Positions 51,382 through 54,300 of a stretch of DNA of 64,000 bases are shown piece after piece. How positions within the stretch are numbered: position 1 is the first letter of the stretch; every line of letters starts with the position of its first letter. The translations under genes were made by a program, and so were the position numbers. Under the pieces are notes generated by a model. That model ran no database searches. It saw only the letters and a list, made by a program, of their open reading frames with translations, and had not been told where the DNA came from. Source of the DNA: Mesodorylaimus sp. YZB2_4 (Eukaryota; Nematoda; Enoplea; Dorylaimida; Dorylaimidae); NCBI GenBank assembly GCA_030248295.1, contig JASANH010001308.1:83692-147691 (forward strand), given 5' to 3'.

Positions 51382-54300
51382 TCACAACTCGAGGTGGTCT
51401 TCATTTTGATCCCATTCATCGTCATCGTTTGCCTCCATTCCTTCCAACCCCTCAAATTCGTCGCTTTCATATTCATTTTTGTTCTGTGTGCCCTGTTTCA
51501 TACGTCCTTCTTGCTTTTTGGACTTGCTTCGCTTTTGATCATCACCTTGTTTCGAATTTTTGTCCGCATCTTGATATCGTTCTCGTTTTGAACCCTTCTT
51601 GCGCTTTTGACCGTCCTCTCCCTTCGAGCGATCGCCATTCTTCTGGCTTTTGTTTTCTTTTGGGCCTGTATCACTCTTGAAGTTCTCAGCATTCTTGTCC
51701 CGCTTCAGAGCCTCGTCTCCATTCATATCCTCCTCGTCACTTTGAGCGTGCGCATTGGCGCTTTTCCAGTCTTTGTTGCGTTTCTGGCTTTTTTTCCGAT
51801 CCTTGTCCGTCTCCAAATCCTGGTCTTGATTCTTTCGTTTCTTCGAATCGAAACTTTTCAAATCTTTTTCCTCTTCCTTATTCTCGTCATCTTCTTCCTC
51901 GCCATTTGGCCCATTCTTCCAATCGCCATCACCTTTTGGATCTTCATCTTTCAGGTCATCATCCATTTTCAACTCTTCTTCTTTGACGTTTTCTTCATCA
52001 TCGTCTTCATTTATATCTTCGTCGTCTTGAGTTTTTTGCAGATCTTCTTCCATTCCGCCAATGCCTCCGTACAGCTTTTCCGTGATTGGCACAACGATAT
52101 CTTTCAGTTTCGACTTCTCTTGTATCAGCTCGTCCGTACTGGCCAGAATATTGTTCTCTAACCAAAGCAGGGTTTTTTCGATGGCGTTCTCAATGATTTC
52201 CTTTTCAGATCGCGGCAGCTTTCCCAACCTGTTCTGATCATAGAGCTGGTTGCGCAAGGAATAAGCGTACGATTCCAAGTTGTTTCGGGCGGCCACTTGC
52301 TCCTTGACTTGCTTGTCTTCTTCGGCAAACTTCTCTGCGTCCTTGACCATTTGATCGATTTTATCCGAGTCCAATCGATTGTGATCATTGGTGATTGTGA
52401 TCTTATTCGAGTTGCCAGTAGCCTTGTCTTGGGCCGTAACGTGCAAGATGCCGTTGACGTCGATCTCAAAAGTGACTTTAATGTTTGGCAAACCCTGGGG
52501 AGCGGGCGGGATACCAGTCAGGTCGAACGACCCCAGCAAGTGATTGTCTTTGGTCATTTGCCGTTCACCTTCGAACACCTAAAAATATGAAAATTTTAAA
52601 CTCAAACTGATCATATTTGAGGCGAAGCAGGTTGCCATATATAATTTTTAACCCACTCGAGAAAAGTATTCAAAATGAGCAGTAAGACAGTCTTACCCAA
52701 AGTAAATATCGACAACAAATATCGGCTACTGTAGGTTTGAATATACCATCGCCATGGATGGCGATGGTACAGTATATTCAAACCTACAGTAGCCTTCCCG
52801 TGCGATTATGAAACAAAATATTCTCTCCAATAAGCCCCTCCAAAGGATTGCTTGAGAAATAAGTCTGCCTTATTGTCAAATACGATATAAACCTCGTGTA
52901 TGCCTACATCGATCCGCACGGTGTCTTGGTTATCGGAAGTAGTCGTAAACATTTGCGTTTTCCTGGTGGGGATAATCGTATTTCGAGGGATCAACTTGGC
53001 CATGATGCCGCCCTTGACTTCGATACCCAGCGTCAGTGGATTCACATCCAACAAGACCATGTGATTAGTGTCTAGAGAAGGGACATAAATAGTATGAATA
53101 AGCCATGCTGTGAGAAATTTCAGACTTACTCTGGTCTCCACTCAACACTGCACCTTGTACCGCAGCTCCGTAAGCGACAGCCTCGTCGGGGTTAATGTTT
53201 CGGCTGGGTTCCTTGCCGCTGAAAAATTCCTGGATCAATTGTTGAATTCTAGGAATTCGAGTGCTTCCTCCAACCAAAACGACCTCATCGATTTCTCCTT
53301 TCTTCAATCCAGCATCCGCCAACACTTTTTCGACTGGTTTCAACGTCGATAAGAAGAGATCCTAAAAAATCAGACTCGTCAGTGGGTACGCCGTGAACTA
53401 GAAACGACTTGCCATATTCAGTTCTTCAAACTTAGCTCGAGTCAAGGTTTCGCTGAAATCCTTGCCTTTGAAGAACGACTCGATTTCGACACGGACTTGA
53501 TGTTGAGTGCTCAAGGCGCGCTTTGCTTTTTCTACTTCACGACGCAATTTTTGCACAGCACGAATATCTTTGAGGACGTCTTTGCCCGTCGTCCTTTTGT
53601 ACATTTTGACGAAGTATTCCATAACTCGGCGATCAAAATCTTCGCCTCCCAAATGTGTATCGCCATTCGTGGCCAGCACTTCAAAAACACCATTTTCGAT
53701 CGAGAGCACAGTGACGTCGAAAGTGCCGCCGCCCAAATCGTAGACGAGGATTATCTGCTCGCCATCGTGTTTGTCCAATCCGTAGGCGATGGCAGCAGCG
53801 GTCCTGAAACGCAATATTTTTCGCACAGATCGCAGTAAATTTCTGAAAAAACTTACGGCTCATTGATTATACGAACAACATTCAAACCGGCGATCGTTCC
53901 AGCGTTTTTGGTGGCGGAACGCTGCGCGTCGTTGAAATAGGCTGGCACGGTGATGACGGCGTCTTTGATCTCTTTTCCCAAGTACGCTTCGACGATTTCT
54001 TTCATTTTTCCTAGCACCATAGCCGAGATTTCTTCTGGAGCGAACTGCTTTATCTCTTTTCCGGCTGTCACTTCGACGTAGGGCATGTTGCCTTTATTAA
54101 TTACCTGAAAATCACTCGCAAAAATGTAGTTTCATAAGCGCTAATCCTCGTAACTTAGCCTGCCTTTGAAGTTATAGCGTGATGGTTTTGAAAAGCTTTG
54201 TGAAGAAACTAGTGATTAGTGATACTAAAGAAACGATGAAAAAATTCATAGCTCAAATTTACTCATAGTCGCATTGTCGAACCAGTCATTCAAAACCTAG

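Follow-up and report, generated by a model that had tools for sequence, protein, structure and literature searches.

A BiP gene located on a 64,000-nucleotide stretch of nematode DNA (hereafter the window) continues without interruption from its substrate-binding domain into a long charged tail that ends in HLEL. The frame (window positions 52578-51382, minus strand) extends for 398 codons from VFEGER in the substrate-binding domain to HLEL and a TGA stop codon with no internal stop, and 226 residues (52062-51385) follow the KLYGG segment. The original prediction of an uninterrupted frame is confirmed. The same frame is kept in paralogs elsewhere in the genome. BiP is among the most conserved proteins of the endoplasmic reticulum (ER), its C-terminal end is textbook knowledge, and known BiPs end ~20 residues past the lid, with KDEL or HDEL as the last four. 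Comparisons between gene copies indicate that the tail is very likely translated and under selection. We tentatively propose that the gene encodes a duplicated and specialized ‘tailed BiP’, one of a small nematode family, which would be retained in the ER and would carry its tail as a charged bristle; this statement, taken as a whole, falls slightly short of being probable.

Structure of the gene and its charged tail

The gene occupies positions 54682-51382 on the minus strand of the window and comprises six exons that together encode an 862-residue protein. Exons were joined manually with anchors and splice sites as guides, and four of the five introns have GT-AG borders while the remaining one is of the GC-AG type. 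The features are listed below, where C-numbers here and throughout denote contigs of the window’s own assembly (145 Mb).

54326..54682, minus strand: exon 1, with the start Met, a hydrophobic N-terminus (putative signal peptide, by eye) and the beginning of the ATPase domain
53857..54104, minus strand: exon 2, ATPase domain
53413..53803, minus strand: exon 3, ATPase domain, followed by the GC-AG intron
53130..53361, minus strand: exon 4, ATPase domain
52908..53071, minus strand: exon 5, interdomain linker and beginning of the substrate-binding domain
52063..52578, minus strand: exon 6, first part, substrate-binding domain and helical lid, up to KLYGG
51838..52062, minus strand: tail block 1, 75 residues of acidic character (net charge per residue -0.32)
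51478..51837, minus strand: tail block 2, 120 residues of mixed to basic character (net charge per residue +0.09) that include a single N-glycosylation sequon, NKS
51385..51477, minus strand: tail block 3, sharply acidic, 31 residues, net charge per residue -0.48, ending in HLEL; the block most conserved relative to C18a
51382..51384, minus strand: stop codon TGA; nucleotide similarity to C18a ceases 3 nucleotides past it

The last intron is 329 nucleotides long, compared to 64 in the paralog C18a, with no similarity across it reported by BLASTN, and it contains a perfect 23-nucleotide inverted repeat with a 25-nucleotide loop (52724-52794). Beside the BiP gene, a small gene on the minus strand (49577-50339) shows, by eye, a hydrophobic stretch at its N-terminus and ends in a repeat rich in Lys and Ser, KSRKSKKGKK. 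Farther away in the window, three very similar minus-strand frames (1283-2293, 9584-10579 and 15888-16883) resemble seven-helix receptors by eye, and they represent an apparent local expansion in which the first frame shares 93% and 89% identity with its two counterparts. Long plus-strand frames at 58520-62631 are retroelement-like, and a gag-like portion with a zinc knuckle is discernible by eye, as is a part resembling a protease.

Over the chaperone body, the protein resembles BiP/GRP78 (HSPA5) in its Hsp70 ATPase and substrate-binding domains and in its 73.0% identity to human GRP78 (75.6% to C317, another BiP gene of this genome). Its N-terminus has a hydrophobic start, as read by eye, and may be a signal peptide. 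It differs from BiP/GRP78 in its 226-residue charged tail, its HLEL end and a changed arch residue. Pfam family PF00012 matches with an E value of 4.3e-253 over profile positions 1-598 of 599, corresponding to a complete Hsp70 domain, and the closest solved structures in the PDB are those of GRP78. Because the tail has 226 residues instead of ~20, we classify the gene as a BiP variant.

The original prediction divided the tail into an acidic half followed by a basic half. This order is correct, except that the charges form three blocks rather than two, the third being the acidic end of 31 residues, which has no Lys or Arg (block borders were chosen by us). Overall, 54% of the tail residues are charged (33% Asp plus Glu and 21% Lys plus Arg, for a net charge per residue of -0.12) and 13% are hydrophobic. 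The acidic-basic-acidic layout is present in all four intact long tails of the genome (charged fraction 0.51-0.54), and the charge blockiness of the window tail was reached by one of 300 shuffles, whereas that of the other three (C18a, C18b and C161) was reached by none of 300 each.

With 54% charged and only 13% hydrophobic residues, the tail is very probably disordered. A single-sequence AlphaFold2 model of the last exon places helices and strands in the chaperone part and only one short helix at the start of the tail (low confidence, mean pLDDT 57.7). This near lack of secondary structure, together with the low hydrophobicity, supports the earlier proposal that a disordered module is built into this Hsp70. 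We rejected the notion that the tail is a known domain, since it matches nothing in the PDB at E values up to 0.01 and, when searched alone, no Pfam family at E values up to 1. A simple repeat expansion was likewise rejected, as Tandem Repeats Finder detects no array in the tail.

Acidic, disordered tails ending in a retrieval signal are carried by the ER proteins GRP94 and calreticulin, the latter of which is encoded in this genome. However, those tails are mainly acidic, whereas that of the window protein has a net-basic middle of 120 residues and is attached to an Hsp70. The lectin domain of calreticulin is absent from the window protein, for which Pfam gives only HSP70 and weaker MreB and FtsA matches. 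Separately, an Hsp90 gene on C45 has an acidic tail, and an intron may follow KHKVE. The likeness to calreticulin raises the alternative that the tail serves as a calcium store, in which the acidic blocks would bind many calcium ions weakly and the chaperone part would be secondary. Two strongly acidic blocks and the 33% content of Asp plus Glu favor this reading, but the central 120 residues carry a net positive charge, Lys and Arg make up 21% of the tail, and the net charge per residue is just -0.12. Moreover, the genome carries two calreticulin genes with acidic tails of their own, such that there is nothing obvious for the tail to replace, and the checked ATPase residues of the window protein are kept. 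We consider a primary role in calcium storage to be unlikely. Calcium binding by the tail is plausible from its composition, and the acidic blocks likely bind calcium at some level that is diluted by the basic block (PMC6022996). RNA binding by the tail in the ER lumen, in contrast, is improbable because the protein would be lumenal.

Long- and short-tailed BiP paralogs

A search of the genome for Hsp70 yielded 102 matching stretches, with cytosolic and other kinds included in the count. From 20 retrieved stretches, 12 BiP-type loci were modelled in addition to the window gene; the models do not include the Hsp70 fragments located on C67 and C13, nor C95 and C20:646k, of which the last two were among the retrieved stretches. 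Ten of the 12 loci are open throughout (the alignment of C448 falls short of the start Met), which together with the window gene makes 11 intact genes. The two broken loci are C892 and C111, the latter of which was recently copied from the window gene and has become a pseudogene with stop codons and a frameshifted tail.

Among the intact genes, C317 is a canonical short BiP with a 21-residue tail, a length shared by C54b and C54c. Tails of 41-63 residues are present in C54a, C448, C92a and C92b, and the long tails measure 212 (C18a), 218 (C18b), 226 (window) and 255 (C161) residues. Six genes end in RDEL (C317, C54a, C54b, C54c, C448 and C161), two in HIEL (C18a and C18b), and one each in HLEL (window) and HDEL (C92a). 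The remaining gene, C92b (C92:208833-213150), has an acidic tail of 41 residues with the end EDDDEDDE and no KDEL-type signal, and possibly encodes a secreted BiP. C54b and C54c (C54:246815-249432 and C54:277466-280076) form a near-identical inverted pair ~28 kb apart, and their body sequences differ at three coding nucleotides. Elsewhere in the genome, there are abundant telomere repeats of the TTAGGC type, which point to a nematode, whereas a search for the SL1 leader allowing up to one mismatch gave no hit. In addition, an 18S rRNA copy (C352:38300-40600) is apparently interrupted or rearranged after nucleotide ~1330 (by eye).

A tree of 14 rows, built from the body only and including human GRP78 and two cytosolic Hsp70s of this genome, groups the window gene with human GRP78 (100/100) against the two cytosolic copies. 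The long-tailed genes form one clade (96/96) in which C161 branches first, followed by the window gene with C111 (97/92) and C18a with C18b (100/99). Genes with medium acidic tails also cluster (95/95), and the canonical C317 and C54b fall outside both groups; the places of C161, C92a and C92b are less sure because their branches are long. The simplest reading is that the long tail arose once.

The tails of C18a and C18b are homologous to that of the window protein, and the tail of C161 is far more divergent. BLASTN similarity between the window gene and C18a runs through the tail and ends 3 nucleotides after the stop codon. In a forced alignment, the 300 nucleotides that follow the stop codon are 49% identical, a value that we judge typical of unrelated sequence. 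C18a and C18b themselves remain similar for ~100 nucleotides beyond their stops, as expected for recent duplicates. Across the three pairs, all seven tail indels are multiples of three nucleotides (9, 15 and 18 between the window gene and C18a; 3, 9 and 18 between the window gene and C18b; 18 between C18a and C18b), although the pairs share history and are not independent. Because the tail frame is conserved in paralogs it is more than a chance event, and we rejected a chance open frame or frame artefact. A related alternative is that the tail is absent from the mature protein, either because it is spliced out or because it reflects an error in assembly or frame. This reading is hard to credit given that paralogs on another contig have the same frame, in-frame indels and ER-signal ends, and that similarity stops at the stop codon.

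The pattern of substitution points to purifying selection on the tail. For the window gene and C18a, dS over 213 tail codons is 0.353 and dN is 0.144, giving a dN/dS of 0.41 (bootstrap 0.24-0.70, with none of 500 replicates at or above 1), compared to 0.10 over 615 body codons. Values for the window gene and C18b are 0.45 (bootstrap 0.29-0.70, with none of 500 replicates reaching 1) and 0.10, respectively. The C18a and C18b tails give 0.41, although this pair is too close for a firm value (bootstrap 0.15-1.87). A dN/dS of ~0.4 also fits constraint on composition alone.

This last observation bears on the alternative that the tails are tolerated slack, wherein redundant BiP copies would carry a low-complexity extension that is constrained in composition only and has no specific task. 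Consistent with slack, tail dN is approximately four to five times body dN, the C111 pseudogene and the broken C892 locus are present alongside canonical BiP genes, and the C161 and window tails have little in common apart from composition and layout. However, an ER-type signal ends every one of the four intact long-tailed genes (HLEL, HIEL, HIEL and RDEL for window, C18a, C18b and C161). The terminal 31 residues are also the best conserved of the tail, with 27 of 31 identical to C18a, whereas block 1 has 46 of 67 aligned residues identical and block 2 has 80 of 114. Furthermore, the order of the three blocks persists in C161 even though its body dS from the window gene is >2. Slack is thus a rather unlikely explanation in our assessment.

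With the window tail as query, the C161 tail was not found, and the five matches obtained lie only on the window, C18 and C111. The alignment score of the window and C161 tails exceeds that of every one of 500 full shuffles, but 25 of 500 shuffles preserving local composition attain it, and therefore only the layout and the ER-type end are secure between these two. It was also foreseen that a second BiP might carry the expression while this copy is silent. A canonical BiP indeed exists (C317, with RDEL), but the intact long-tailed copies are not decaying and instead show purifying selection.

Residues of the chaperone body were compared in human numbering. Nine functional residues, catalytic ones among them (T37, K96, R197, E201, D224, G226, G227, T229 and T518), are unchanged in every one of the ten nematode rows of the comparison, which did not include C54c. 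We take T518 to be the AMPylation threonine. Loss of the AMPylation site was at first suspected from the Thr that follows NRL and was rejected, because T518 falls within the DKxTGN loop and is conserved there. At 37 positions, all four long-tailed proteins depart from the residue common to human GRP78, C317 and C54b. One such position is human V429, presumably (by DnaK numbering) the arch residue over the peptide groove, which is Val in C317 and C54b, Lys in the window protein, C18a and C18b, and Glu in C161. A changed arch residue would point to a changed choice of clients. This change is not special to long tails, however, because the four medium-tailed paralogs carry Leu, Gln, Gly and Asn at the same position.

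Stress motifs of the XBP1, ERSE and heat-shock types are lacking from the 400 nucleotides upstream of eight of the 11 genes, including the window gene, C18a, C18b and C161, and therefore stress induction of the long-tailed BiPs is unsupported over this interval. Within the same distance, C317 has ACGT-core sites (~0.15 expected by chance per gene), and C54b and C54c have a two-unit heat-shock-like site (~0.11 expected by chance).

The HLEL end and KDEL receptors

The HLEL end had been described as a non-canonical retrieval signal, and reading it as a novel type of signal is overstated. Human CES1 is described as kept in the ER by HIEL and CES2 by HTEL (PMC4676782, PMC2266714), and thus signals of this form were already known. 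Like HLEL, both have His at -4, a non-acidic residue at -3 and a Glu-Leu end, although they are located on esterases (PMC2266714). For a reporter ending in SLEL, secretion after ER calcium depletion was reported to be attenuated by extra KDELR2 (PMC8276033). HLEL itself is absent from the open-access full texts that contain at least two of HLEL, KDEL and HIEL, which was the scope of this search.

According to one account of the KDEL receptor, the C-terminal carboxylate, Leu and Glu of the signal are read tightly, whereas receptor R169 is the partner of Asp at -3, and W120 that of the residue at -4 (PMC8248988). Three KDEL-receptor genes are present in the genome, and they keep those gatekeeper and signal-contact residues that are readable by eye, namely the equivalents of human Asp50, Glu117, Trp120, Arg159 and Arg169, with residue roles as in that account (PMC8248988). 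An apparent alteration at E117, read as Gln in C156, was rejected because inspection of splice sites shows that the exon ends with Glu in each of the three genes. The third gene (C78:239792-240535) is divergent and shares its contig with a more conserved one nearby.

Unusual residues at -3 are also found at the ends of other ER-type proteins of this genome. A calreticulin gene on C90 (nucleotides 2074-2193 of the retrieved stretch) has a His-rich acidic tail, DDHHGHDHGEL, as read by eye, and the other copy (C7) ends in KDEL. Similarly, a thioredoxin-domain protein ends in KTEL (by eye, from exon translations). Given these ends, the HxEL precedents and the kept receptor residues, HLEL is probably a working retrieval signal, and we expect the window protein to be a resident of the ER.

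Leaky or regulated secretion is an alternative fate. If HLEL and HIEL were weak signals, the protein might exit steadily or upon loss of ER calcium, and its basic block might bind polyanions such as glycans outside the cell. HLEL indeed lacks the -3 Asp that normally pairs with receptor R169 (PMC8248988), and ER proteins with retrieval tails are reported to leave the cell when ER calcium drops (PMC8276033). On the other hand, HIEL is described as the signal by which human CES1 is kept in the ER (PMC4676782, PMC2266714), and His at -4 may compensate for the missing Asp because HDEL binds the receptor approximately ten times better than KDEL (PMC8248988). Secretion as the main fate therefore seems quite improbable.

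A possible role for the tail

In the role that we favor for a tailed BiP, the protein would enter the ER, be returned by the KDEL receptor via HLEL and work as a BiP. Its tail would be a permanently disordered, block-charged polymer attached just beyond the lid, acting as a charged bristle and as a low-affinity auxiliary binding surface. Such a tail could keep client complexes soluble, and it could add bulk to the chaperone to exert stronger entropic pulling on clients. In addition, lumenal calcium might soften or tighten the tail via its two acidic blocks. The role as bristle and auxiliary surface in particular is a conjecture that we consider possible but doubtful. Precedents exist for two of its elements, as added bulk on an Hsp70 has been proposed to strengthen entropic pulling (PMC12305717), and the disordered acidic end of DnaK is reported to aid chaperone function (PMC7918210).

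Several known proteins share parts of this architecture. DnaK is likewise an Hsp70 with a disordered, charged C-terminus that helps function (PMC7918210), although its end is far shorter, has one acidic motif and resides in the bacterial cytosol. GRP170/HYOU1 is an ER relative of Hsp70 whose larger size stems from an acidic loop and a lengthened C-terminus (PMC4290550). The acidic loop of GRP170 is inside its beta domain, whereas the body of the window protein is BiP-like and has no such insertion in the alignment to GRP78. Among nematodes, the BiPs of C. elegans end in KDEL and HDEL (PMC9478747), and the nearest report is an Hsp70 expansion in Halicephalobus mephisto, whose expanded cluster appears to be separate from the ER and mitochondrial groups (PMC6872716). 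A BiP with a long charged tail is not described in the titles and abstract openings of the open-access literature among the matches listed.

This nematode lineage might have evolved a second class of ER Hsp70, in which a block-charged disordered module and a changed substrate arch would provide a built-in solubilizer or calcium-responsive co-factor retained via a hydrophobic HxEL, although we regard this broader reading as unlikely. A charged tail of >200 residues that is under selection and present in four intact copies, one of them highly diverged, represents a natural experiment on disordered tails in the Hsp70 cycle. Likewise, the set of ends found in this genome (HLEL, HIEL, HGEL and KTEL alongside RDEL, HDEL and KDEL) is well suited for testing the tolerance of the KDEL receptor at position -3.
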